Source: Lachnospiraceae bacterium (GTDB taxonomy: Bacteria > Bacillota > Clostridia > Lachnospirales > Lachnospiraceae). From it: a DNA stretch of 13,557 bases. A model generated the notes under the pieces. The model saw nothing but the letters and a program-made list of their open reading frames with translations. It did no database searches and had not been told where the DNA came from. Where the stretch lies: positions 1 to 13,557 of the forward strand of contig DNJW01000127.1 in assembly GCA_003488965.1 (NCBI GenBank). The letters are read 5' to 3'. The position numbers were made by a program, and so were the translations under genes. Below, one piece after another: positions 2,164-13,557 of the stretch; positions within the stretch are counted from its first letter, which is position 1; each line of letters starts with the position of its first letter.

Positions 2164-2249
2164 CTCAGGTACATCCTTTCTGGTTTTCTTTTGGGGACTT
2201 TACAAGTGCGGCTTCCCATAGTTGAATGCGGCGCAAAGGGCGCGCCTTT

Positions 2250-2276
2250 TATCGAAAGCGGAGAATGCTTCCGATA
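2250..2276 (-). promoter_or_regulatory. Leader hairpin of the patB-like gene
   Basis: TATCGAAAGC (2250-2259) and GCTTCCGATA (2267-2276) form a 10-bp stem with one mismatch and a 7-nt loop. The hairpin lies in the putative 5' leader of the minus-strand gene, between its promoter and its start. Next to it is the near-palindrome AAAGGGCGCGCCTTTT (2235-2250). This could be a transcriptional attenuation or protein-binding site. No T-run follows in the gene's direction, so a terminator reading is weak. Confidence 0.35.
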
Positions 2277-2282
2277 AGACAC

Positions 2283-2291
2283 ATTATAACA
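2283..2291 (-). promoter_or_regulatory. Extended -10 promoter for the patB-like gene
   Basis: On the minus strand this reads TGTTATAAT, a perfect -10 box with the TG extension. No good -35 box is present 16-18 nt upstream, as is common for extended -10 promoters. Transcription would begin near 2276 and give a leader of about 110 nt before ATG 2161-2163. Confidence 0.55.
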
Positions 2292-2625
2292 TGAAAGTCT
2301 TTCCGGTGGTATACCTGGAAATAGATTTTATTGAGTGAGTGTTCTGGCAATGTGGAAAAAACATGGTAAATGAATGCGCTCACGAGTACTGTCCGATTTG
2401 CCGTCTGCTGCGGTAAGGCTGCTTCCTTCAGGCAAAACCGCTGTCCTTTGGGTAAGAGCGCGGTTAAAAGTTAAAACGCAGATATTAAATGCGTTGAATA
2501 TAATGTGTCTATAAAAATAAAAACAAAAAAAGTAGCATATTTCGCGGGGGAGGAGTAAAATGTAGTAGGGGATGCTTTGGAAACTCCGTCAGATTGGAAA
2601 TTGCCATGGATGGAGGCGGGAAGCA
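2292..2625. other. Intergenic stretch with weak signals only
   Basis: No gene is supported here. A perfect -10 box TATAAT lies at 2499-2504 on the plus strand, without a clear -35, next to a short inverted repeat ACGCA/TGCGT (2476-2480/2490-2494). GCGCTCACGAGTACTG (about 2378-2393) resembles the edge of the repeat family seen at 2626-2778 and may be a degraded copy. GGGGGAGGAG (2546-2555) is a strong Shine-Dalgarno-like string followed by ATG-TAG-TAG (2560-2568), an immediate start-stop. A short frame of 31 codons from ATG 2572 runs into the first repeat and looks spurious. Confidence 0.4.
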
Positions 2626-2690
2626 GCGCTCATTCGTTATACATTTCATGTTGGCAAATGTTTGTGACCATGGGTATATACTCGCGAGCG
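2626..2690 (+). repeat. CGTTATAC-GGCAA-GTATA palindromic repeat, copy a
   Basis: The 53-bp core (2626-2678) aligns with 2727-2778 with about six mismatches and one gap. Its ends are inverted: GCGCTC (2626-2631) mirrors GAGCGC (2685-2690), and TTATAC mirrors GTATA. Inside, ACATTT (2641-2646) pairs with AAATGT (2656-2661). It also carries TTGGCA (2651-2656) and TATATA (2675-2680) 18 nt apart, a possible promoter facing the small gene at 2798. The fold and repetition point to a mobile palindromic element. Confidence 0.7.
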
Positions 2691-2726
2691 CATTCATTTT
2701 TCGGTGTTCTGTTCTACAATACAGAT

Positions 2727-2778
2727 GCGCTCGCTCGTTATACATTCAGGTTGGCAAATGTTTTTGACCGTGAGTATA
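2727..2778 (+). repeat. CGTTATAC-GGCAA-GAGTATA repeat, copy b
   Basis: A direct copy of 2626-2678 offset by about 101 bp. It starts GCGCTCGCTCGTTATAC and ends GTGAGTATA. It stops 7 nt before the ribosome binding site of the gene at 2798, so the leader of that gene is made of repeat sequence. It has TTGGCA (2751-2756) and TATAAA (2775-2780) 18 nt apart, each 5 of 6 to consensus. A start from that pair would leave an mRNA leader of only about 11 nt. Confidence 0.7.
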
Positions 2779-2797
2779 AATTGAGAGGAAGGAAAAC

Positions 2798-3283
2798 ATG
2801 TCGAAAGAATTTGATGAGTTTATTGCTGATAAACCAGAGGTGAATATCGCTTCAAAAGAAGAGGTTTCCCTGATAAAAATCAAACTTGGAAAGAGCCACA
2901 GGAAGGAATCGGACTGGGAAGTAATAAAGGATATTTTTCAGAGAAGGGACTTTATCACTTTTATTCCGAACAGAAAAATGAGGGGGATTAAAAAGATAGA
3001 AAATTTACCCTGTGAATATGGATACCTGATTGTTTTTTCTAACATAGACGATTGCACAAGGTACATTCAGGGAAAACAATATGGAATGGCAAGTCCAAGA
3101 TATGTCCAGATTATCAGTATTTCTTCTATGGATGTATGGGAGATAGCAGAGCGAAATGGCAGAGATGTTCTCATCGATGTAAATGGGGAGATTAGTTCCA
3201 AGTGCATTATGTATACTCACGGGGAAGGGCGGCTGAAGGCTGTTGTTCTGGCAGACGGATATGGTAACAAGTTTACGCGGTAG
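2798..3283 (+). CDS. Small protein of unknown function (SseB-like at best)
   Basis: An intact 161-residue soluble protein that I do not recognise with confidence. ATG 2798 follows AGGAAGG (2786-2792) with 5-nt spacing. The sequence is mixed alpha/beta, with no signal peptide or membrane segment. Segments of note are FITFIPNRK near 53-61, GYLIVFSNIDDCTRYI near 74-90, and DVLIDVNGEI near 124-133. The last resembles the hydrophobic-strand-then-N-G pattern of SseB-like and related small Firmicute proteins (weak inference). No catalytic motif stands out, and there are only two cysteines well apart. It is preceded directly by dispersed repeats that may supply its promoter, and followed after 26 nt by the broken small gene at 3310. 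It is the only intact gene between 2164 and 5227. Confidence 0.75.
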   Translation: MSKEFDEFIADKPEVNIASKEEVSLIKIKLGKSHRKESDWEVIKDIFQRRDFITFIPNRKMRGIKKIENLPCEYGYLIVFSNIDDCTRYIQGKQYGMASPRYVQIISISSMDVWEIAERNGRDVLIDVNGEISSKCIMYTHGEGRLKAVVLADGYGNKFTR

Positions 3284-3309
3284 GAACCGAAAGAAAAAGA
3301 ACTGAATCG

Positions 3310-3394
3310 ATGACCGGCAGAAAAGACATTACTCTGGAAATGATTCTGCAGGGCGGCAGGGAACTCCCGGATATAGATGCAACCAGGTATCAGG
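3310..3394 (+). pseudogene. 5' half of an interrupted small gene (gene Y)
   Basis: ATG 3310 opens a frame reading MTGRKDITLEMILQGG and on to DIDATRYQ. After the 10-bp AGGTATCAGG at 3385-3394 the frame runs quickly into a stop. The same frame phase resumes after the second AGGTATCAGG at 4441-4450, as RYQAFLEEYCRKK, and ends at TAA 4513-4515. Joining the halves at the repeat gives a continuous 49-residue, highly charged protein. I do not recognise it. The ribosome binding site is weak (AAAGAAAAAGAA region). The join is an inference from frame and sense, not from a homologue. Confidence 0.5.
3385..3394 (+). repeat. Left copy of a 10-bp direct repeat at a gene break
   Basis: AGGTATCAGG, identical to 4441-4450. 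Two reading frames change partner at this point: frame reading RYQ (gene Y) and frame reading GIR (the SWIM-associated-type fragment). It marks the left boundary of the 1,056-bp inserted or rearranged block. Confidence 0.65.
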
Positions 3395-3796
3395 GAGATG
3401 CTCCGCAGGATAGTGGCGGCAGTGGGCTTTGATAAATCGGAATACGAAAAGGGTACTCTAAGGCATATCGGGGAGAGCAATGAGGAATGGTTCCTTACAT
3501 GCTGGCTTCGCTGGAAGCGGACGGTTTCGCTTTCCAACGAGCAGAGAGAAGCGCTTTTTCAATGGGCAGAGGAGCATGTGACTAAGCGCGTGCAGGGCAT
3601 TATGGAAGGGAACCACCGGAACTATTACGGGGAATGCGCCGCCTATATCGCAGCGCTGGGAGAAGCCAGGGAATCCGGAGGAGAGCAAAACGGAAAACAG
3701 GCTACCATGGCGAAGTACATGGATGCATACAGCAGACGGAGCGCATTCCGTCAGGAGATGCGGGGGTATGGGATGGTGGATGGAAGGAAAAAGTAA
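3386..3796 (+). pseudogene. C-terminal fragment of a SWIM-associated-type protein
   Basis: From GIREMLRRIVAAVGFDK the frame stays open to TAA 3794-3796, about 136 residues, without an upstream start of its own. An ATG at 3377 exists but lies inside gene Y sequence. The stretch ECAAYIAALGEARES, then KYMDAYSRRSAFRQEMR, resembles the C-terminal tails I associate with SWIM zinc-finger family proteins; that recall is tentative. No CxCxnCxH SWIM motif is present in the fragment itself. The missing preceding part is found downstream at 4328-4449 in the same frame phase, so the gene is both truncated and permuted. The stop at 3794 overlaps the beginning of the helicase fragment. Confidence 0.5.
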
Positions 3797-4350
3797 TTGT
3801 ATATGATTATGTCGATAGTCATATCCCCATGTTTGACAACATGTATGCGAAAAGGCTTAAAGCATATAAACAGATTGGGTATGAGGTTTGTACTGGAATA
3901 AAAGGTGAAAAACAAACTGCAAATGCTATTTTTGGCGGAGATAATTATGTAGAGGTTTTTCAAAGAGACTTGCTTGAAGCAGATAATAACATTATCATTT
4001 CAAGCCCGGTAATCAGCGGCTCAAAAGTATACGAATTGATTCGTTTGCTTAAAGATAAACAGGTAAATGGAGTTGACGTTACGATAGTGACATGGGAACC
4101 GGATTCTTATAATTTTGGCGATGCGGGCTTCTGGATGCAGCTGCACGAAGAAATAAGGCAGGCTGGATTTTATATAAAGACTGCCCGAGATTCATGTGAG
4201 CACTTTTCCATTATAGACCAGAATATTGTTTGGTATGGCAATATTAACATATTAGGTAATGCAAAGTTCGAGGATAGCATGATGCGTTTGGAGAGTAGGG
4301 AAATTGCTGCAGAATTGATGGAGATAACCTTTGGGGGAAAACCGATATAA
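3793..4350 (+). pseudogene. C-terminal remnant of a DEAD/DEAH helicase with PLD-like domain
   Basis: About 185 residues starting abruptly at VIVYDYVD, with no start codon or ribosome binding site at that point. YDYVDSHIPMFDNMYAKRLKAY followed by GYEV is the signature I know from the end of the helicase core in DEAD/DEAH proteins of the type found in TOTE conflict systems and related restriction-like helicases. A PLD-like C-terminal domain follows: ISSPVISGSKV, then EHFSIIDQNIVWYGNINIL. The usual HxK motif reads HFS, so the lysine is absent, although I believe this is common in this subgroup. All helicase motifs I-VI are missing, so this is a 5'-truncated relic. It sits inside the rearranged block, between the two SWIM-associated-type fragments. 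Confidence 0.65.
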
Positions 4351-4449
4351 GTTAAAACAGGATTATCCCGGAGCCGTCAGTGTACTGAAGGAGATTCGCC
4401 AGATTACGAAGGCGAGTCAGTGGATGGACGAATGGATACAAGGTATCAG
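4328..4449 (+). pseudogene. Internal fragment of the SWIM-associated-type protein
   Basis: An open stretch, in the same frame phase as the fragment at 3386-3796. It reads KLKQDYPGAVSVLKEIRQ, then ITKASQWMDEWIQ, and reaches GIR at the second AGGTATCAGG. Placed before the fragment at 3386, it continues ...MDEWIQ-GIR-EMLRRIVAAV without a break, which suggests that the original gene ran 4328-type sequence, repeat, 3395-type sequence. Its exact left edge is unclear, between the frame's stop at 4325-4327 and about 4352; it overlaps the last codons of the helicase remnant. Confidence 0.45.
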
Positions 4450-4450
4450 G
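4441..4450 (+). repeat. Right copy of the 10-bp direct repeat
   Basis: AGGTATCAGG, identical to 3385-3394, 1,056 bp away. Frames switch here in the reciprocal sense to the left copy. Confidence 0.65.
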
Positions 4451-4515
4451 CTTTTCTGGAAGAATATTGTAGAAAGAAGCTGCTGCTGAAGGAGTTGGAA
4501 TGGGCCCGGGTATAA
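4441..4515 (+). pseudogene. 3' half of the interrupted small gene (gene Y)
   Basis: In the frame of ATG 3310, this reads RYQAFLEEYCRKKLLLKE and on to TAA 4513-4515. It is a charged helical tail. Alone it has an in-frame ATG at 4432 but no ribosome binding site. It is best read as the missing end of the gene started at 3310. Confidence 0.45.
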
Positions 4516-4546
4516 CCATATGGAGAGTTTTCTCGTAAAAGCTGTG

Positions 4547-4591
4547 AAAATTGACAAAAATTGTGTCAATTTTAAAAAATTATGTTATAAT
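4547..4591 (+). promoter_or_regulatory. Extended -10 promoter with perfect inverted-repeat operator
   Basis: TGTTATAAT (4583-4591) is a perfect -10 box with TG extension. AAAATTGACA (4547-4556) and TGTCAATTTT (4564-4573) are a perfect 10-bp inverted repeat with a 7-bp centre, covering the -35 region. TTGACA at 4551 is 29 nt from the -10 box, too far to be its -35; GTGTCA (4563-4568), spaced 17, is the only placement. The layout is that of a repressor-controlled promoter. Only small ORFs of doubtful status follow, so its original target gene has probably been lost. Confidence 0.55.
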
Positions 4592-4676
4592 GTTGGAAGA
4601 GAGAATTTTGAACTAATTTGTATACGTTAAAACGAACAAAAATGTGGAACGATGTAGAATATTATCAGGCGGATAA

Positions 4677-4835
4677 ATGCTTTTCTTTACAAATCCGGAA
4701 GCGGGGGAGGATTTTCTTTCGGCTTCTATAAACAGAGGATTGGACAATGAGAAGTCGATGAATGTAAAGGTAAAGCTTCAGGATTTCATGAATGACTTTG
4801 CTTTTGTAATGGAGATACTTTCAGAAGTAAAATAA
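4677..4835 (+). pseudogene. Short ORF, probable gene remnant (52 aa)
   Basis: ATG 4677 to TAA 4833 encodes MLFFTNPEAGEDFLSASINR and then MNVKVKLQDFMNDFAF. The composition looks protein-like, and the second half has the feel of an HPr-like or similar small alpha/beta domain start (weak). The ribosome binding site is poor (AGGCGG, about 4 nt from the start). A second frame from ATG 4642 (29 codons, MWNDVEYYQADK) overlaps its beginning and might be the same gene before a frameshift near 4677. It lies downstream of the promoter at 4547-4591. Confidence 0.3.
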
Positions 4836-4845
4836 GGGGAATTTT

Positions 4846-4935
4846 ATGATGAAAGCTGTGATTGGCGAAGTGAATAAGGCCAGGGAACTCTTTTATATCA
4901 AAGATTTTCCTGGCAATTTGTTTATTTTGCTTTAG
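4846..4935 (+). pseudogene. Short ORF remnant (29 aa)
   Basis: ATG 4846 to TAG 4933 encodes MMKAVIGEVNKARELFYIKD followed by a hydrophobic end. AGGGG (4835-4839) gives a fair ribosome binding site 6 nt upstream. No family is recognised. It ends 23 nt before the dispersed repeat at 4959, which may have cut the gene off. Confidence 0.3.
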
Positions 4936-4958
4936 GAAGAGAACTACATAGATAGGTT

Positions 4959-5037
4959 TATACCCACAAACGAAAATAATTGCCGTCTATACAGTATAAC
5001 GAGTGAATGCATCAGCAATCCAGAGCAGAAAGCGGCA
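4959..5037 (+). repeat. Dispersed intergenic repeat, copy 2 (inverted relative to copy 1)
   Basis: Matches the reverse complement of 864-942 at about 71 of 79 positions with no gap. The first 43 bp (4959-5001) are the TATACCC...GTATAACG unit; the following AATCCAGAGCAGAAAGCGGC is identical in both copies. The two copies lie 4.1 kb apart in opposite orientation and bracket most of the decayed region. A 65-codon open frame through this area (5007-5204) has no ribosome binding site and is treated as chance. Confidence 0.75.
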
Positions 5038-5126
5038 ATTATACTCAAGATTGCCAGGATTTACTGTTCTGTCTGAGTCGAGCCTATATGGCTGGCGGCC
5101 TTTCATTGTTGATTATTGCAAATTTT

Positions 5127-5170
5127 AATGGCATGCAGTATAAATGCATTTACGAGTATAACATGCCATT
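5127..5170. repeat. Nested palindrome upstream of the methyltransferase gene
   Basis: AATGGCATG (5127-5135) pairs perfectly with CATGCCATT (5162-5170), and the centre holds the 12-bp palindrome TAAATGCATTTA (5141-5152). The inner TAAATGCATTTACGAGTATAA is close to the sequence flanking repeat copy 1 (about 842-863, minus strand), so this is probably the distal end of the same mobile element as 4959-5037. It lies 57 nt before the methyltransferase start and may end up in its mRNA leader. Confidence 0.55.
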
Positions 5171-5227
5171 GTTCAAAGAAGACATAACGTTGATTAAGCT
5201 GTAAGACATCAAAAAGGGTAAAATGTT

Positions 5228-5839
5228 ATGGATGGTACAGACAAGAAGAGCATTCAGGATACGCTTCAATATTATAACAGAAATGCAAAAGACTTTGTCG
5301 GCAACACGGTCACAGTTGATTTTACGGCCACCCAGACACGCTTTGTATCAAAGTTAGGGAGAGGATCTCATATCCTTGATTTTGGATGTGGATCAGGTCG
5401 GGATACGAAATATTTTCTGAGTCAGGGATATCGGGTCACTGCGACAGACGGGTCTGTTGAATTATGTAAACTGGCGAGCGAATATACCGGGATTCCTGTA
5501 AAGCATATGATGTTCCAGGAATTAGAGGAAAAGGAGATTTATGACGGAATCTGGGCCTGTTCTTCTATTCTGCATCTGCCCCTTCTGGAGTTGAACGATG
5601 TCTTTCATCGGATAACGGCGGCATTGAAGAAGGACGGAGTTCTCTATACTTCCTTTAAGTATGGGAGCTATGAGGGGAAGCGGAATGGAAGATATTTTAC
5701 GGATATGACAGAAGACAGGTTTTCTGATATTTTGAAAGATATAAAGGGTCTGGAACTGGAAGAACAATGGGTTACTTCAGACGTAAGGCCAGGGAGAGGC
5801 GATGAGAAATGGCTGAATATTATATTGCGCAAAATTTAG
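5228..5839 (+). CDS. Class I SAM-dependent methyltransferase
   Basis: A 203-residue Rossmann-fold methyltransferase, complete. Motif I is D51-FGCGSGRD (51-59), the glycine-rich SAM loop; D74 in VTATDGS is the expected motif II acid contacting the ribose. IWACSSILHLPLLEL (about 110-125) stands where the catalytic motif IV would be and has no NPPY/DPPY, so this is not an N6-adenine or N4-cytosine DNA methyltransferase of standard type. The overall look is of the TehB/BioC-like small methyltransferase group; the substrate is unknown. The ribosome binding site is modest (AAGGG 5214-5218). Its last 31 nt overlap the start of the PLD-helicase gene in another frame, implying co-transcription and translational coupling. 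It may therefore act in the same pathway, possibly by modifying a nucleic acid, a protein or a small molecule (inference). Confidence 0.85.
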   Translation: MDGTDKKSIQDTLQYYNRNAKDFVGNTVTVDFTATQTRFVSKLGRGSHILDFGCGSGRDTKYFLSQGYRVTATDGSVELCKLASEYTGIPVKHMMFQELEEKEIYDGIWACSSILHLPLLELNDVFHRITAALKKDGVLYTSFKYGSYEGKRNGRYFTDMTEDRFSDILKDIKGLELEEQWVTSDVRPGRGDEKWLNIILRKI

Positions 5840-8292
5840 CGGATGAATTAATCCAGATAGAGACAACGGATGTCATGACCGGTGACAGGAATCAGAGCCG
5901 TTTTTTGTATTATCAACTGAAAAAGAGCATCCGACAGGCACAAAAGATAGATATTATTGTATCATTTCTGATGGAGTCAGGGGTGCGCATGATTCTGGAT
6001 GATTTGAAAGCTGCGCTGGACAGGGGGACTGTTATCCGTCTGCTGACCGGGAATTATCTTGGAATTACGCAGCCCTCAGCATTGTATCTGATAAAGAAAG
6101 AACTGGGGAATCAAATCGATTTACGCTTTTATAACCAGAAGAGACGTTCTTTTCATCCAAAGGCATATATTTTTCATTATGAAAACGGAAGTGAAATCTA
6201 CATAGGGTCTTCAAATGTGTCTAAAAGTGCACTGACTTCCGGCATAGAGTGGAATTACAGATTCAGCAGTCAGAAAGACAGGGGGAATTTTAATCTGTTC
6301 TATTCGACTTTTGTGGATTTATTTGAGAACCATTCAATTATTATAGATGATGTTGAGTTGAAGCGTTATTCTAAAAGCTGGCATAAACCGGCTGTAGCGA
6401 AGGATTTGGAAAAGTATGACAATCTGGAGGATTATCCGGACGCGAAGGTGGAGGCGCTGTTTCAACCAAGAGGAGCGCAGATAGAGGCGTTGTATGCACT
6501 GGAAGACAGCAGGGCGGAAGGGGCTACAAAGGCTCTGGTGCAGGCGGCAACTGGAATAGGAAAGACATATCTGGCGGCATTTGATTCGGCAAAATATGAG
6601 CATGTTCTGTTTGTGGCACATCGGGAAGAGATTCTGAAGCAGGCTGCTGTATCTTTTCGGAATGTCAGGGATTCAGATGATTATGGGTTCTTTTATGGGA
6701 AATTCAAACAGACTGACAAGAGTGTCATATTTGCTTCTGTAGCAACTCTGGGAAAAGAGGAATATCTTCAGGATGCATATTTTAGGCGGGATTATTTTGA
6801 CTATGTTGTAATTGACGAATTTCACCATGCTGTAAACGAACAATATCGACAGATTATCAACTATTTCCGCCCGAAATTTCTACTGGGCCTGACAGCCACT
6901 CCGGAGAGAATGGATAACAGGGATATTTATGAAATCTGCGATTATAATGTGCCCTATGAAATTTCCTTAAAGGATGCCATCAACAAAGGAATGTTGGTTC
7001 CTTTTCATTATTATGGGATATATGATGAGACGGATTATTCTGGTTTTCGCGTGGTTCGGGGGCATTATGAAGAAAAAGACCTGAACGTTGCTTATATTGG
7101 AAATGTCAGAAGATATGATTTGATATATAAGCATTATATGAAATATCGCTCACAGAGGGCTTTTGGTTTCTGCTGCTCTAAAAAGCATGCGGAGGATATG
7201 GCAGAGGAATTTTGCCGACGGGGAATCCCCTCTGTGGCGGTGTACAGCAATTCTGACGGAGCATATTCGGAGGACAGGGATATCGCCCTGGAAAAGCTGA
7301 AAAAAGGGGAAGTTAAGATAATCTTCTCGATAGATATGTTTAATGAAGGTGTGGATCTTCCGGAGGTTGACATGGTATTATTTTTGCGCCCCACAGAGTC
7401 TCCGGTGGTGTTTCTACAACAGTTGGGCCGGGGCCTGCGTAAAAGTAAAGGGAAAGAATATCTTAATGTGCTTGACTTTATTGGGAATTATGAAAAGGCT
7501 GGGAGAATTCCGCTGTTCCTTGGTGGGGAAGTGGTTTATGCGGAGAATGGAGATAAGCGGACAAGCGACATAGAATATCCGGATGATTGCATCGTAGATT
7601 TCGAGATGCGCCTGATTGATTTGTTCAGGGAGATGGAAAAGAAAGGGCTGACCATTCGGGAGATTATCAGAAGGGAATATTTCCGGATAAAGGAATTGTT
7701 GGACGGAAAGGTGCCTACACGAATGGAATTATTTACACACATGGAGGATGACATTTACCAGATGTGTGTGAGAAACGCCAAAGAAAATCCGTTCCGCAGA
7801 TATATGGACTTTCTTCATGAAATGGGTGAGTTGTCTATGGATGAAGAGGCGGTGTTTGGTGGGCTGGGGCGTGAATTTTTAAATTTATTGGAGACCACGG
7901 ATATGCAGAAGGTGTATAAGATGCCTGTTTTATACAGCTTTTATAATGATGGGGATATCCGTATGGCAGTTACGGATGAGGAAATTTTGCAGGCATGGAA
8001 GAAATTTTTTTCTGAGGGGACGAACTGGAGGGATTTGCAGGAAAGGATAACTTATAAGGAGTTTCAGCAAATTACGGATAAGCAACATTTGTCCAAGGCA
8101 AAAACTATGCCGATACGGTATTTGAAGGCTTCAGGGAAAGGATTTTTTATTGACGTGCCGGGGTATGCCATTGGAATCAGGGGAGATTTGGAAACGGTGA
8201 TGATGAACCGGATTATGGGAGTGCAGATGGCAGATATTATTGAGTATCGGACGGTGGAGTATTATCGGAGGAGGTATCGGGATGGTCGGTGA
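5809..8292 (+). CDS. Phospholipase D-type nuclease / SF2 helicase fusion
   Basis: An 827-residue two-module enzyme. Residues about 30-180 form a PLD-like domain with H116-P-K118 and GSSN (133-136), the single HxK...N/S set seen in PLD-family nucleases that dimerise to act. Residues about 215-570 are a superfamily 2 helicase core: ATGIGKT (247-253, Walker A), DEFH (336-339, Walker B), LTATPER (361-367, motif III), EGVDLPEVD (513-521, motif V) and QQLGRGLRKSK (537-547, motif VI with its arginine finger). About 250 C-terminal residues (TRMELFTHMEDDIY onward) are a helical region typical of the relatives I know, with no named domain. ATG 5809 follows GGGAGAGG (5792-5799) and overlaps the methyltransferase gene by 31 nt. 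Such PLD-helicases are found in restriction-like and other defence loci, so DNA or RNA cleavage powered by ATP is likely. All motifs are intact. Confidence 0.9.
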   Translation: MAEYYIAQNLADELIQIETTDVMTGDRNQSRFLYYQLKKSIRQAQKIDIIVSFLMESGVRMILDDLKAALDRGTVIRLLTGNYLGITQPSALYLIKKELGNQIDLRFYNQKRRSFHPKAYIFHYENGSEIYIGSSNVSKSALTSGIEWNYRFSSQKDRGNFNLFYSTFVDLFENHSIIIDDVELKRYSKSWHKPAVAKDLEKYDNLEDYPDAKVEALFQPRGAQIEALYALEDSRAEGATKALVQAATGIGKTYLAAFDSAKYEHVLFVAHREEILKQAAVSFRNVRDSDDYGFFYGKFKQTDKSVIFASVATLGKEEYLQDAYFRRDYFDYVVIDEFHHAVNEQYRQIINYFRPKFLLGLTATPERMDNRDIYEICDYNVPYEISLKDAINKGMLVPFHYYGIYDETDYSGFRVVRGHYEEKDLNVAYIGNVRRYDLIYKHYMKYRSQRAFGFCCSKKHAEDMAEEFCRRGIPSVAVYSNSDGAYSEDRDIALEKLKKGEVKIIFSIDMFNEGVDLPEVDMVLFLRPTESPVVFLQQLGRGLRKSKGKEYLNVLDFIGNYEKAGRIPLFLGGEVVYAENGDKRTSDIEYPDDCIVDFEMRLIDLFREMEKKGLTIREIIRREYFRIKELLDGKVPTRMELFTHMEDDIYQMCVRNAKENPFRRYMDFLHEMGELSMDEEAVFGGLGREFLNLLETTDMQKVYKMPVLYSFYNDGDIRMAVTDEEILQAWKKFFSEGTNWRDLQERITYKEFQQITDKQHLSKAKTMPIRYLKASGKGFFIDVPGYAIGIRGDLETVMMNRIMGVQMADIIEYRTVEYYRRRYRDGR

Positions 8293-8294
8293 AA

Positions 8295-8329
8295 GAGATT
8301 AACGATATCGTGAATTCTCAGTAATTTTT
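8295..8329 (+). terminator. Weak candidate terminator after the helicase gene
   Basis: GAGA...ACGATATCGT...TCTC (8295-8319) forms an imperfect hairpin centred on a 10-bp palindrome, followed by a short T-run (8325-8329). The stem has internal mismatches and low GC. It may partly separate the helicase operon from the primase-RT gene, or merely be a local palindrome. Confidence 0.25.
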
Positions 8330-8438
8330 AAGTTGGTTGTTTTGCATTGATGTACCTAAAATGTATTGTGGATTAAATGCAATTATGCGGCTGTGACTAA
8401 ACAGTGTAAATATGAAAAACATCGGAGGAATCGGAGAA
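8330..8438 (+). other. Short leader of the primase-RT gene
   Basis: No gene is visible. TTGCATT (8342-8348) and AATGCAA (8376-8382) are perfect inverted repeats with a 27-nt centre. Candidate promoter pieces are weak: TTGGTT (8333-8338) with TAAAAT (8357-8362) at 18 nt, or TTGCAT (8342-8347) with TATTGT (8364-8369) at 16 nt. Several defence RTs have a structured noncoding RNA next to the RT gene; this gap has room for only a small one and no strong fold is obvious. Confidence 0.3.
8424..8430 (+). promoter_or_regulatory. Ribosome binding site that fixes the primase-RT start
   Basis: GGAGGAA is within translation range of ATG 8439 but lies downstream of the in-frame ATG 8412, so it supports ATG 8439 (protein MGNDYYRYIKEN). 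The protein then begins right at the helix that precedes the CHC2 zinc finger, as in DnaG. Confidence 0.7.
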
Positions 8439-11400
8439 ATGGGGAATGACTACTATAGATATATCAAGGAGAATATACGAATACAAGATATATGCGGAAA
8501 ACTGGGGATTCCTGTTTATGGACAGGGTAGTACAAATATGTGTAAATGCCCTTTCCATGATGATCGTATTCCATCTATGGCTATATATGAAAATCATGCC
8601 TATTGCTATGCTTGTCATAAAAGATGGGATAATCTTGATTTTGTCGGAGAGCAATTGAGTTTGGACTTTGAAGGGCGAATAGAGTGGATGGAAACGAACT
8701 TTCCAGAAATTTTGTCTAAAAAATCGGAACTTACAAAATCCAACGAGAAAGCAATACCGAAAAGCGGCTACGAAATCGCATATAAGTTATATGCCGATAT
8801 GACTTCCGAGGAGGATAGGAATTTACAGCAGTTTGCGGATAAGCGCAAGTTTAAAAAATCATTTTTACAAGAGCAAGGCATCTTTTTCGCAAAGGGGCGG
8901 AAACTACAGGTATGTTATGTACAGGATGAGAATACGAGTATTGAGGAACGGACAAAGCTCGATAGGTGTAAATTGCTGCTCCGCCAGCCTTGGCATGAAA
9001 GGTCTTTAACGGATCGGTATGCGGATTATTTTCCGACAGATGGAGTGATAATCTCGATTCGGGATAGAAAGAGGGATATCGTAGGGTTTGCTCAGCGTAT
9101 GGCAGAGAACCAAAAGCTGAGATATAAATTTACGAAAGAACTGCCTAAAAGAACGATACTATATCGGGTAGATGTATTTGAAAAAAGGATTCAGACAGAA
9201 AAAAAGAGCCAAAGTATTGAGGTATATCTTGTGGAGGGGATATTTGATGCACTGCGCATGGAGACTGAAGGAAAAAATGCGCTTGCGGTTTTGGGAAGCC
9301 AATTGACAAAAACGCAGACATCGGAATTGGAAACGGTATTGCAGGAGTATAACCGGTCGACATCTATACATATTTTTATGGATCAAGATGAAGCAGGACA
9401 GAGGGGAAATTTGCAGACTCTGAAAAATCTGTGGAGCAAAGAATTCTTTCGGAAGAATTATATAGATATTATAGTTCCGTTAGAAGGAAAAGACCCTGAC
9501 CAATGCTTTCAAAGAGGTAAAGATGCAAAGATAAGGAAATATCTTCCATTTGAGTATTTAGTTCGCTCCAACATACCGGATGAAATAAGGGAAAAGGAGA
9601 TTGATACAAAAAAATGTTTTGAGAGCTTGGGGACGGAAGATAAGGTAATATGCCTAAGTAAAATAAGTCATTGGCTACCCGAGCTTTACTGGCAAGATAT
9701 TTTGGATGCCTATGCCGTAGTGCAGAACAATTACTTTGTCCAGATAATCAGCGCGTATATAGGTAACAGGAGAATAGATCTTTCAGGGGATTCAAAAGCT
9801 TTAAGAACTTCAAAAGTATTTTTAGGCAGAACAGATTCCTATCAGTTTCAAACAGCTTTACAGATAGCCCGAACAAGCTATGGGAGGGAGGCTTTGCCGT
9901 TGGACGAGTTGAGCTGGAATCGGATTCAAGCCTGTGCAGATGCCTTTTTTGCATACTTTAAGGATACTCTCCAAAAAGGGAATACTTTAAGAATTCCTTT
10001 GCTGACTATGCGTTTTCCTAAAAAACTCGGCGAAGAGCGAACAAAATCGATTTATGTTCATGAGCGGCTGATTCTCCAGCAATATGTTCTAAATGAAATG
10101 TTGGGAGAAGGGGATAACGGCTATGCCTCCTATATTCCGGCAGTGCGTTATAATCGGCAGAACAATAGGATTATAACAACAGGGGAAAACATTGATAGAG
10201 AGACAGTTAGCTTTGCCTATCAAATTGATATGGATGCCCTGCTAGAGAGCGGAGTGACAGGGCATGGAATGTACCGGGAATATTATAGCTGTTGGAAAAC
10301 GTATATTCAATATATTCAGGAAGGAATCCAAAAGTTAAATTCTGATCGTATTTACAGAATTAAACTGGACATTCGAAAATTCTATGATAGCATTCCTCAA
10401 TATGCTGTCCGCAGGGCAATTTTTCCAGCATTGTTGAAAGCGCTGAGAGCCGATTCGGATAAATTCTCGACATTTCGAGCAGAAGAAACGGAGGATGATG
10501 TCAACAACCTTGCAGAGAAGGTGACATCCTGGCTTCTCGGGGAATTATTCGAAAGCAAGTATTATGATGCGGAGGACGGAAGTGTAGCTACAAAAAAAGA
10601 AACAACAACGGGCATTCCACAAGGACCGAATCTCTCCGCATATATTGCTAATATAGTTCTGTTTGATATGGACGGAAAGGTTGTGAAACTGGTTGATAAG
10701 ATAAACAAAAGTGCTCCTGAGGGGACGATTATTATTCGTTATGCAAGGTATGTAGATGATATGATTATAATATCTTCCAATGCCGATGCATTACTTGAAA
10801 TGAAAAGCCTGATATCTAGTGAATTATACGAGTTGGGATTGGTGCTCAGTCCTAAGACAGACAGAGAAGATGGCGTTTCGAAAGAGGAAGCATTGGCATG
10901 GACTACGGATCAAAGAGGTGGGTTGGGTGTTTCTACGGTTTTCGACTTTCCCGATGATACATTAGATGACGTTTTGGATGAAATGGAGTCGTATGAAATA
11001 ACAGACCGGAGAAGCGCATTGAAGCTTTTGGAAACTGCTCTTTTTGCGGTGGACAAAGATTTTTTGCCGGAGGAAGCAGATCAGAACCGTCTTTTGAGCG
11101 TTCTTTTTCATACCCAGGAAATTCGTTTTACAGACATGGTGCGTGTTGCCGAATTGTTGCTAATTAAAGCGGCTCGGCAAACTGGAAACATAGATGAAAA
11201 AAACATTTATGACCGTTTTATGGAACTTTGGTCTGTTGGAAAGAAGTCGAGTCCAAGGGATTCATTGTTCTGGGAAGAGGGGATTGAACTTTATCTATTT
11301 ATTGAAGGCTGTAATAAGGTTTTAAAGAGGAAAGGGGATTCCATACGGGCAAAGGAGCGCTTCCTGATTTGGAAAATGGCGAAAGTAGCAATCGGGAAGT

Positions 11401-13557
11401 GCTGGCAGAAAGAGTTTGTTCGGGAGATTGTAAGGCAACTGAAAGAAAAACGGGTACTCAAGGAAAACCAATGGGTATTAGGATTGCGAATAATGGAAGT
11501 TCAATGTCGATTGAAGGAAGAGGGATTTATATCTGGTGGGACATGTGCGCTTGAAGGGAAGAATGCGTTTGAATGTCGGTGGCAGTATGCTTTTTGGGAA
11601 AAAGAAGATGAGCTTTCCTGGAAATTTACTTCGGATAAGGCAGAAGAGAGAATAGTATCGATTTTTCATAGTGCTGCTTTTTATCTGGGCAAGGTATCAG
11701 AAGAAAAGGAATACAGGGAAATAAAAAGTGCCGTGGTGGAAGGAGCACCGGAGATTCTTGTTCAGGAAAACACCGGAATATTGGGACATTGTTTGGCTGA
11801 TTGGTTTCAGGAACAACAGGAAAGAGAACCAGAGGAAGAGAGTACCAGAATCTCTTTGCTTACTTTGCTGAATCTTTTGGAGGATAGTGTAAAAGCTGAA
11901 ATAATTGATAAGCTTTCCCATTTCCAGGAATATATGTTTCACGTGGGGAAGGAGAGTCTGAAGAATTGTCTGCCTGTAGTGCCGGGTGTCGGCTATCCGG
12001 GGATTATTGCGGAGACGGCATCCATGAAACAGGGGAGGAGTGTCGTTAAGAGGGTTGACTTTGTACCATCGGCTAATGCAAAGCCAGAGAATTGGGAAAA
12101 AGAGGAAGAAAACGTTTATTCGCTCTTCTCTATGGTGTTGGACGAGGGATTTGTTGCGTTAGATACATTGTTTGAAGATAACGGGCAAAAGGAGTTACAG
12201 ATACCGTTGATTCTGAATACTTATCAAAGATTGTATGAAGAGATACGGAAAATCCAAGAGGAAAATCCCTTGCAGTCGGTTGTGCTGTCAAGAAAAAACA
12301 TATTTGTCAAAAGGGGGGATGAAAAGGAAGATATCTCGCTTCTTCTCTGCTTTTATCTGCTGCCGGAAACGCATACGGGGAATGGCGTTTTGCTGGATGG
12401 CAGAAGAGGAAGGTTCACCTTTCAAACAATACAAGATTCAGGAAGCTTTTATTGGATTGCGGGTTATCTTGTCAAGGACGTATGCCATTTCGATGCATTA
12501 CGCTTGGAATATGATAATGATGGTATTTCAGAAGAAAAAGCAGATGAAGTCAAAATGATGGAATATACATTTAGGCGTTTAACTGGTGAAAGTCTGAATT
12601 TTGGAAATACGATAAAAAATATTCGTTCTTATGAAAAATCTGTGGATAGAGCAATTAAGCGTACAGAATATTTTCTATCCATGCGAGAGTACAGAGATAT
12701 ATTTTTAGAGGAAAACGCAGCAGTGGATTCCTTTATCAGCCAGAGAATGAGAAGAGAGAACTATGATTACCGTTCGGTGGAATGCAGCTATTATACAGCT
12801 GTCTGGGCAAAAGGGTATTTGCGGGGCAGGTTTGATGCGTTAGTGAAGCTGTCTGAGAAAAATGAAGAGAAGAATAGTAGAAAATATTTCACTGAGAGAA
12901 GAGTGCCGAAAGCTTATCTTGTCCTGGCAGATTGTATAGAGGGACTTGTTAATATGGTGAGTAAAGATATAAAAAGCAAGGAGGATTTTAGGGGGCTCCA
13001 GGCATTAGCCTGCGGACTTCGCGCGGATGCTGTTTTGTTGCACCTAAGAATGCAGGTTTTGGAACTGATAGAGTCGTTTGGCGTGGAACAAAGGGAAAAA
13101 ATGAAAAAGCAGAAAGAGGATTTGCCCTTTGCTGTTTTAGGGTTGGATGAAAATCAGGAGATTACGATGGATGAGAGTCCGATTGAGGAGATTGTAAATT
13201 GTCTGTTGGATGGAAGAAACGATAAAAGACTTAGCAAGATAAATCATATAGGCTGGCTGCTTTTGCTTGAATGGATATTGGAGGCTGAGGGGTTTGAGTC
13301 AAAAGATGAAATGGAATTTTTCGTCGGAGAGATTAAAAAATGGGTTCATAAAATATTAAAGGATACGGAACAAGATGCACTGGAGTTTCCGTTTGAGAAA
13401 ATGAACGCTTTTTTCGCTTTGTGGACCCGTGCTCAGACAGATGAATTTTTTGTGTTATGCGAAGAAATTGATAAAAAGCTTGGGACTAAGGTGGAAGTCA
13501 AATATTCCGATTTTTATTACCAAAAAAAGGGAAAAGTACATATTCTTTTGGATAATC
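8439..13557 (+). CDS. DnaG-type primase (CHC2-TOPRIM) / reverse transcriptase fusion, partial at 3' end
   Basis: One frame without a stop for 1706 codons, running off the right edge. Residues 1-70 hold a CHC2 zinc finger: MCKCPFHDD and CYACHKRWDNLDFV give C37, H40, C56, C59. Residues about 190-250 match the DnaG catalytic N-subdomain (IRDRKRDIVGF at 207-217, RYKFTKELPKRTILY). The TOPRIM domain (about 258-345) has YLVEGIFDA (E266) and MDQDEAGQRG (D315, D317), all metal ligands present. The reverse transcriptase lies at about 510-840: RFPKKLGEERTKSI (525 on), LDIRKFYDSI (D644, D650), GIPQGPNLSAYIAN (725 on), RYARYVDDM (YVDD 771-774), LVLSPKT (K806) and GGLG (about 827-830). PQGP is typical of UG/Abi defence RTs. 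The remaining 860-plus residues are largely helical and unrecognised. The protein could prime with its own RNA and extend it as cDNA (inference). It lies 146 nt after the PLD-helicase gene on the same strand. Confidence 0.88.
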   Translation, partial: MGNDYYRYIKENIRIQDICGKLGIPVYGQGSTNMCKCPFHDDRIPSMAIYENHAYCYACHKRWDNLDFVGEQLSLDFEGRIEWMETNFPEILSKKSELTKSNEKAIPKSGYEIAYKLYADMTSEEDRNLQQFADKRKFKKSFLQEQGIFFAKGRKLQVCYVQDENTSIEERTKLDRCKLLLRQPWHERSLTDRYADYFPTDGVIISIRDRKRDIVGFAQRMAENQKLRYKFTKELPKRTILYRVDVFEKRIQTEKKSQSIEVYLVEGIFDALRMETEGKNALAVLGSQLTKTQTSELETVLQEYNRSTSIHIFMDQDEAGQRGNLQTLKNLWSKEFFRKNYIDIIVPLEGKDPDQCFQRGKDAKIRKYLPFEYLVRSNIPDEIREKEIDTKKCFESLGTEDKVICLSKISHWLPELYWQDILDAYAVVQNNYFVQIISAYIGNRRIDLSGDSKALRTSKVFLGRTDSYQFQTALQIARTSYGREALPLDELSWNRIQACADAFFAYFKDTLQKGNTLRIPLLTMRFPKKLGEERTKSIYVHERLILQQYVLNEMLGEGDNGYASYIPAVRYNRQNNRIITTGENIDRETVSFAYQIDMDALLESGVTGHGMYREYYSCWKTYIQYIQEGIQKLNSDRIYRIKLDIRKFYDSIPQYAVRRAIFPALLKALRADSDKFSTFRAEETEDDVNNLAEKVTSWLLGELFESKYYDAEDGSVATKKETTTGIPQGPNLSAYIANIVLFDMDGKVVKLVDKINKSAPEGTIIIRYARYVDDMIIISSNADALLEMKSLISSELYELGLVLSPKTDREDGVSKEEALAWTTDQRGGLGVSTVFDFPDDTLDDVLDEMESYEITDRRSALKLLETALFAVDKDFLPEEADQNRLLSVLFHTQEIRFTDMVRVAELLLIKAARQTGNIDEKNIYDRFMELWSVGKKSSPRDSLFWEEGIELYLFIEGCNKVLKRKGDSIRAKERFLIWKMAKVAIGKCWQKEFVREIVRQLKEKRVLKENQWVLGLRIMEVQCRLKEEGFISGGTCALEGKNAFECRWQYAFWEKEDELSWKFTSDKAEERIVSIFHSAAFYLGKVSEEKEYREIKSAVVEGAPEILVQENTGILGHCLADWFQEQQEREPEEESTRISLLTLLNLLEDSVKAEIIDKLSHFQEYMFHVGKESLKNCLPVVPGVGYPGIIAETASMKQGRSVVKRVDFVPSANAKPENWEKEEENVYSLFSMVLDEGFVALDTLFEDNGQKELQIPLILNTYQRLYEEIRKIQEENPLQSVVLSRKNIFVKRGDEKEDISLLLCFYLLPETHTGNGVLLDGRRGRFTFQTIQDSGSFYWIAGYLVKDVCHFDALRLEYDNDGISEEKADEVKMMEYTFRRLTGESLNFGNTIKNIRSYEKSVDRAIKRTEYFLSMREYRDIFLEENAAVDSFISQRMRRENYDYRSVECSYYTAVWAKGYLRGRFDALVKLSEKNEEKNSRKYFTERRVPKAYLVLADCIEGLVNMVSKDIKSKEDFRGLQALACGLRADAVLLHLRMQVLELIESFGVEQREKMKKQKEDLPFAVLGLDENQEITMDESPIEEIVNCLLDGRNDKRLSKINHIGWLLLLEWILEAEGFESKDEMEFFVGEIKKWVHKILKDTEQDALEFPFEKMNAFFALWTRAQTDEFFVLCEEIDKKLGTKVEVKYSDFYYQKKGKVHILLDN

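Follow-up and report, generated by a model that had tools for sequence, protein, structure and literature searches.

A catalogued UG29-class fusion of a DnaG-type primase and a reverse transcriptase in a Lachnospiraceae bacterium, and its possible relation to the DRT1 defence proteins

Results

The fusion gene and its domains

The stretch of DNA analysed here (hereafter the window) comprises the 13,557 nucleotides of contig DNJW01000127.1, from the Lachnospiraceae bacterium assembly GCA_003488965.1, and it ends within a long forward-strand gene of the UG29 class (8439..13556) that joins a DnaG-type primase and a reverse transcriptase (RT) in a single chain. The 5′ 1706 codons of this gene are present and the contig stops before its 3′ end; judging from relatives, about 680 further codons lie beyond the contig end, in the part where the relatives carry a predicted nitrilase. 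All domains described below are read on the same strand. The chain opens with a CHC2 zinc finger (8457..8684, residues 7-82; Pfam PF01807) with the ligands C37, H40, C56 and C59, followed by a DnaG RNA-polymerase core (8757..9773, residues 107-445), in which the TOPRIM domain (9219..9503, residues 261-355; Pfam Toprim_2 and Toprim_4) carries the acidic residues E266, D270, D315, D317, D352 and D354. The RT with its N-terminal extension (9825..11021, residues ~463-861; delimited by Pfam, fold search and hhalign to Drt1a) contains the catalytic D644 (10368..10370), the YVDD motif (residues 771-774; 10749..10760) and, in a loop modelled with low confidence, the serine S832 (10932..10934), a candidate protein-priming residue. 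From 11022 to 13556 (residues ~862-1706) begins a mostly helical middle region, as suggested by the secondary structure in models of the window protein and of its relative P0003.

An earlier note on this DNA had proposed that a DnaG-type primase core is joined to an RT of the UG/Abi kind within a single polypeptide, both with complete active sites. These proposals were borne out, since Pfam reported CHC2, Toprim_2, Toprim_4 and RT domains in agreement with the fold search, the zinc ligands, the six TOPRIM acidic residues, D644 and YVDD were invariant in all 28 aligned rows, and the RT_UG29 profile of PADLOC-DB (2023) matched over the whole length. Indeed, the DnaG features of the window protein (i.e., zinc finger, RNA-polymerase core and TOPRIM acidic residues) are complete, and because the ligands and acidic residues are invariant the primase core is likely to be catalytically active. 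Note that the NCBIfam dnaG equivalog gave 132.7 bits, below its cut-off of 283.6. As a separate observation, a stand-alone DnaG-like primase was found in Pseudomonas antarctica (L042:5055-9012), with 134.2 bits to RTasDnaG-like and 171.4 bits to RT_UG29 across the primase part; it adjoins an MzaA-like gene, and three further neighbours that were scanned gave no PADLOC match, with no RT seen.

Membership in the UG29 class

The match to RT_UG29 (PDLC03767) reached 1040.8 bits and aligned window residues 2-1697 with profile positions 2-1634 of 2280, the second-best PADLOC profile being RTasDnaG-like with 101 bits. On four intact relatives RT_UG29 scored between 1491.7 and 1746.8 bits, nearly end to end. 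The profile itself starts in the DnaG part and continues through the RT; its nearly full-length match means that all of the chain, from the DnaG part through the RT to the long tail, corresponds to an already described UG/Abi RT class. By sequence, the window protein is thus a full member of the catalogued UG29 class, from which it shows no difference. The earlier note knew of no described system joining a DnaG-type primase to an RT, a statement that does not hold, as PADLOC-DB (2023) contains both RT_UG29 and RTasDnaG-like. A 2022 study by Mestre reportedly defined the UG29 class and may already describe parts of the nitrilase and DRT1 findings given below. Our literature searches on UG29 and on RT-DnaG fusions surfaced no functional description in the portions of the papers that were available, and those on RTs with nitrilase and DnaG surfaced the myRT survey alone, which mentions dnaG as one of the domains sometimes encoded close to RT genes (PMC8934634). 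As far as searched, what is new here is therefore the predicted nitrilase effector and the tie of UG29 to DRT1, the class itself being known.

Relatives and reality of the fusion

A protein search returned 22 proteins including that of the window, the other 21 being 2197-2577 residues long. RVT_1 and Toprim_2 were listed in 22/22 and CHC2 in 20/22, in the same domain order as in the window; the two proteins for which CHC2 was unlisted (P0007 and P0019) are shorter than all other relatives and cover 89% and 93% of the query. One relative (P0021) sits on a 5.7 Mb contig, and two others are plasmid-borne, in Sphingomonas aerolata (28.4% identity, over 62% of P0003) and in Polaromonas naphthalenivorans CJ2 (26.9%, 57%), the latter gene lying on a complete plasmid record, with a product of 2510 residues (WP_011798575.1) that bears the annotation of a CHC2 zinc finger protein. 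The earlier note had named the lack of any homologue with the order CHC2-TOPRIM-RT as the outcome that would overturn it, and the 21 homologues exclude that outcome: the fusion gene is real and not an artefact.

The genome scan yielded 64 loci, 14 of which combine primase and RT in a single match (L014-L027; in L018 and L027 the gene runs off the contig end), while 49 of the 50 others match the RT and one (L042) the primase. The nearest loci (L014 and L015, 79 and 81%) belong to Lachnospiraceae, as do L016 and L017 (35-36%), and the remaining ten (L018-L027, 26-31%) come from Oscillospiraceae, Planctomycetota, Pedosphaera, Haloferula and several proteobacteria. When the RT_UG29 profile was run at 1e-60 over 398 genomes of the source's phylum, only its own genome and two genomes matching the primase part alone were found; among 14 control genomes, Thermotoga maritima matched, which we took as its DnaG. 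Likewise, 46 of 98 genomes of the source's relatives (own included) gave matches, and among those listed none except the gene itself extends past query residue 425, so they are DnaG or CHC2 proteins.

A viral origin was also considered and set aside. IMG/VR held no relative when searched with P0003 and gave 38 loci when searched with our query A1, 37 matching RT parts and one (L121) the TOPRIM part. Matches were present in 30 phage records, and the 20 listed ones all lie inside query residues 1-436 (15 annotated as primase, five without annotation).

A predicted nitrilase in intact relatives

According to sequence and models, intact relatives are ordered as primase, RT, helical middle and nitrilase, and they appear to end in a predicted nitrilase with complete active-site residues. 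The C-terminal domain of the relatives has a nitrilase fold in the fold search, and E1925, K2000, E2009 and C2049 of P0003 are invariant in 12/12 loci reaching that region. We take these to be the putative catalytic Glu, Lys and Cys of nitrilases, by their position and by the nitrilase motif. As a side observation, the protein of a Pseudoalteromonas locus (L024:9962-17361) is split into two ATGA-overlapping genes, for a primase-RT half of 1182 residues and a helical-nitrilase half of 1284 residues, followed by a Drt1b-like gene; this is a natural cut between polymerase and effector. In addition, many protein kinases rank after the nitrilases in the Foldseek search with the second half of P0003 (E 0.06 and weaker); these matches, which we place by guess at residues ~1190-1700, are possibly due to chance or to a degenerate kinase-like part. 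A MACPF match under its cut-off was, like these kinase matches, set aside as likely chance.

Kinship to DRT1 and comparison with other systems

The RT alignment of UG29 was compared by hhalign with that of Drt1a, giving 269 columns (probability 98.7, E 3e-16) that extend past the RT into the helical part. DRT1 (UG1; Drt1a with or without Drt1b) has the same order of RT, helical middle and C-terminal nitrilase as intact UG29 proteins, its RT is homologous, and a Drt1b-like gene stands beside two UG29 genes: in L024 (Pseudoalteromonas) and L026 (Psychromonas) the gene overlapping the UG29 end is Drt1b/RTasTM. For drt1 genes themselves, PMC13275509 gives ~18% as the share adjoined by drt1b. DRT1 differs in that the solved protein (PDB 9yfd, 1229 residues) is without a primase, and that the Drt1a profile matches UG29 in the RT only. 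Along its entire length this structure can be aligned with the Drt1a profile; 9yfd was identified by a sequence search, and its absence from the fold-search listings is uninformative. Furthermore, 22 of the 50 other loci have a frame with an [FLI]PE[LF][SA] block at residues 883-1186, i.e., a nitrilase-type Glu motif. Five long proteins scanned among them gave 1113-1406 bits to Drt1a and also matched RTasNitrilase, and of nine more, five were Drt3a, two matched Drt1a (228.8 and 362.5 bits) and two were RTs left unclassified.

An RT tree was built from 48 rows (21 UG29, 18 labelled DRT1, five DRT3a, two DRT2 and two others; no group II outgroup), the DRT1 labels coming from PADLOC scans for seven rows and from length and alignment for 11. 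UG10 (DRT7) sequences for this tree were sought in 299 genomes and none was found, but the control genomes were also silent, so that absence is not implied.

Two other systems join comparable parts. Retron-Eco2, mentioned in PMC13275509, resembles UG29 in carrying an RT and a TOPRIM in one chain. The TOPRIM of this retron is a nuclease effector that follows the RT and lacks both the CHC2 finger and the DnaG core, and the system uses an msr-msd RNA. DRT7 (UG10) also holds an RT and a primase in one chain; however, its primase is of the AE_Prim_S_like type (PMC8934634), unrelated to DnaG, and UG10 profiles match UG29 in the RT only. The window primase is of the CHC2-DnaG/TOPRIM type, not the archaeo-eukaryotic one of DRT7.

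Genomic neighbourhoods

The GC (guanine plus cytosine) fraction drops from 0.51-0.55 to 0.38-0.45 from ~2.2-2.5 kb onward (window 2200-13557), which suggests an island border. Upstream of the fusion gene (window 3634-8292) lie a PLD-domain protein and an S-adenosylmethionine (SAM) methyltransferase gene overlapping that of a PLD and SF2-helicase protein; the latter matches PADLOC mREase_IV with 334.7 bits, and these genes likely form a separate restriction-type system. A comparison of seven genes of the window with the 14 UG29 loci gave a single weak match, that of the methyltransferase in L017 (28.7% over 101 residues), and the window neighbours were rejected as partners and treated as island neighbours.

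Across the 14 loci no neighbour gene is common to all. The neighbours are often defence-like and varied (e.g., RdrA/RdrB-like in L016 and L017, Avs4-like in L025, a type IIG restriction-modification gene in L022), with 9 of the 20 neighbour proteins scanned with PADLOC giving no match at the thresholds used. Such varied and unshared neighbours fit a self-contained gene residing in defence islands. In detail, RADAR-type RdrA/RdrB-like pairs stand upstream of UG29 in two Lachnospiraceae-type genomes (L016:3539-8911 and L017:3320-9232; RdrA 43.8 and 51.1 bits, RdrB 113.2 and 134.2 bits, respectively). A DEDDh-type exonuclease gene lies directly behind UG29 in two Alphaproteobacteria (L021:17553-18443 and L022:17502-18326; 82.4 and 87.4 bits) and might trim the UG29 DNA product. 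In L014:6573-17137 and L015:4101-14933, two genes that are homologous between the loci precede UG29, the second of them encoding a protein of the SpoIVB-peptidase kind, and in L015 a 104-base piece of the 3′ end of this second gene recurs at 22781-22881 (87.5%), as if a repeat flanked the island.

Discussion

Taken as a whole, UG29 may be a DRT1-like anti-phage protein in which DNA made by the RT controls a nitrilase, a reading that we hold tentatively, at slightly under an even chance. According to the DRT1 study (PMC13275509), this nearest studied relative is protein-primed and template-free, and it primes on S402, within a stretch unresolved in the structure. By analogy, DNA synthesis by the UG29 RT would need no RNA template and would start on the protein itself, with S832 as the candidate residue. 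Indeed, S832 is invariant in 28/28 UG29 rows and stands after YVDD in a stretch (832-838) whose predicted local distance difference test (pLDDT) is <50. In the Drt1a alignment (A4; 14 rows, five of them PADLOC-scanned), a serine (S435 of L032) is invariant in 14/14 rows and aligns with S402 in one alignment and two residues off in another; the triplet SGP occurs at this site in 6/28 UG29 rows, all distant members, and in 6/14 Drt1a rows. The primase core would then act on single-stranded DNA, which is the weakest step, and could either (i) lay primers for a second strand on the RT's own product or (ii) act on phage DNA at replication forks, linking the switch to phage replication. The state of the DNA would set the assembly of the chains with one another and hence the nitrilase, as in DRT1, and on infection the nitrilase would hydrolyse an essential amide or nitrile compound, so that the cell stops before the phage matures.

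Several results weigh against this reading. The whole-length match to Drt1a was not obtained (65.7 bits, the best stretch being the RT alone, residues 610-794), and the RT tree groups UG29 with DRT1 at a support of only 67/48 and with long-branch warnings. Drt1b stands behind two of the six UG29 genes whose downstream gene was scanned (L015, L021-L024 and L026; 14 loci in all). The nitrilase lies outside the window and was seen through fold and conserved residues in relatives alone; in four relatives neither Pfam CN_hydrolase (E up to 1) nor PADLOC RTasNitrilase (1e-10) gave a match, the best nitrilase in Foldseek had E = 1.5e-3, and hhalign of the UG29 tail to the Drt1a alignment covered 38 columns with a probability of 62.7. 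As for S832, it was paired with the DRT1 priming serine in one hhalign run and unpaired in another, and five MAFFT settings placed it 13 columns away; PMC13275509 also notes a lack of S402 conservation among the other class 3 DRTs. Protein priming at S832 is thus a guess. The activities of all domains are predicted from sequence and models, and the role given here to the primase is also a guess, because DRT1 needs no primase.

DnaG primases copy single-stranded DNA, not RNA, an activity that fits copying of the RT product better than priming on an RNA template. For this reason we favour an order in which the RT comes first and the primase then works either on the strand made by the RT or on phage DNA, the opposite order being less likely. 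In a specific form of this scheme, which we rate as rather unlikely, the RT strand would grow on its own serine, the DnaG core would prime on this strand and make it double-stranded, and the duplex rather than single-stranded DNA would hold or free the nitrilase toxin. PMC13213688, citing a preprint, reports duplex-like DNA for DRT7, which joins an RT with a primase-polymerase.

It is unlikely that the DnaG core serves mainly as a sensor of phage fork DNA or replication proteins, its catalysis being of little importance, with RT and nitrilase as switch and effector. The lack of a neighbour common to the 14 loci suggests that the chain holds its own sensor, while the invariance of the TOPRIM acidic residues and zinc ligands speaks for catalysis that has been kept.

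The primase-first scheme of the earlier note, in which the primase core would synthesise a short RNA from a template for the RT to extend into cDNA without tRNA, structured RNA or protein primer, is distinctly unlikely, since the template of DnaG enzymes is single-stranded DNA and not RNA, and the nitrilase would be left without a role. Two complete active sites in a single chain speak for it, as do CRISPR-associated RTs reported to prime DNA synthesis directly (PMC10415136) and the pairing of an RT with a primase-polymerase in DRT7 (PMC13213688); however, the RT profile matches that of DRT1, template-free and protein-primed (PMC13275509). We consider very unlikely a class 2-like mode, in which the RT would make DNA from a non-coding RNA, with second-strand synthesis falling to the primase. 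Sequence or fold searches did match RTs of DRT2, Drt3a and DRT9, and DRT3 reportedly produces double-stranded DNA by means of two RTs (PMC13174585). However, no Rfam family reached the gathering threshold in the window, and the DNA upstream of 8396 showed no conservation with two relatives ~80% identical in the gene, a search for template RNA that covers the window, the region downstream of the gene lying beyond the contig end. Finally, an assembly or sequencing join of two genes, for which the fragmented source genome (440 contigs, 65% complete) might speak, is virtually inconceivable and refuted by the 21 same-order homologues, including P0021 on its long contig and the complete plasmid record.

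Defence RTs differ mostly in their priming and in what their DNA does, and with primase, RT and nitrilase in one chain (in intact relatives) point mutations in a single gene could address both questions. UG29 is of moderate to high interest in that its three active sites can be probed directly in this way. If the duplex were indeed the signal, UG29 would join the effector logic of DRT1 to a DRT7-like duplex synthesis by means of an unrelated primase. More generally, the UG29 protein would show that bacteria have recruited two unrelated primases to RT-based immunity, the archaeo-eukaryotic one in DRT7 and DnaG in UG29.
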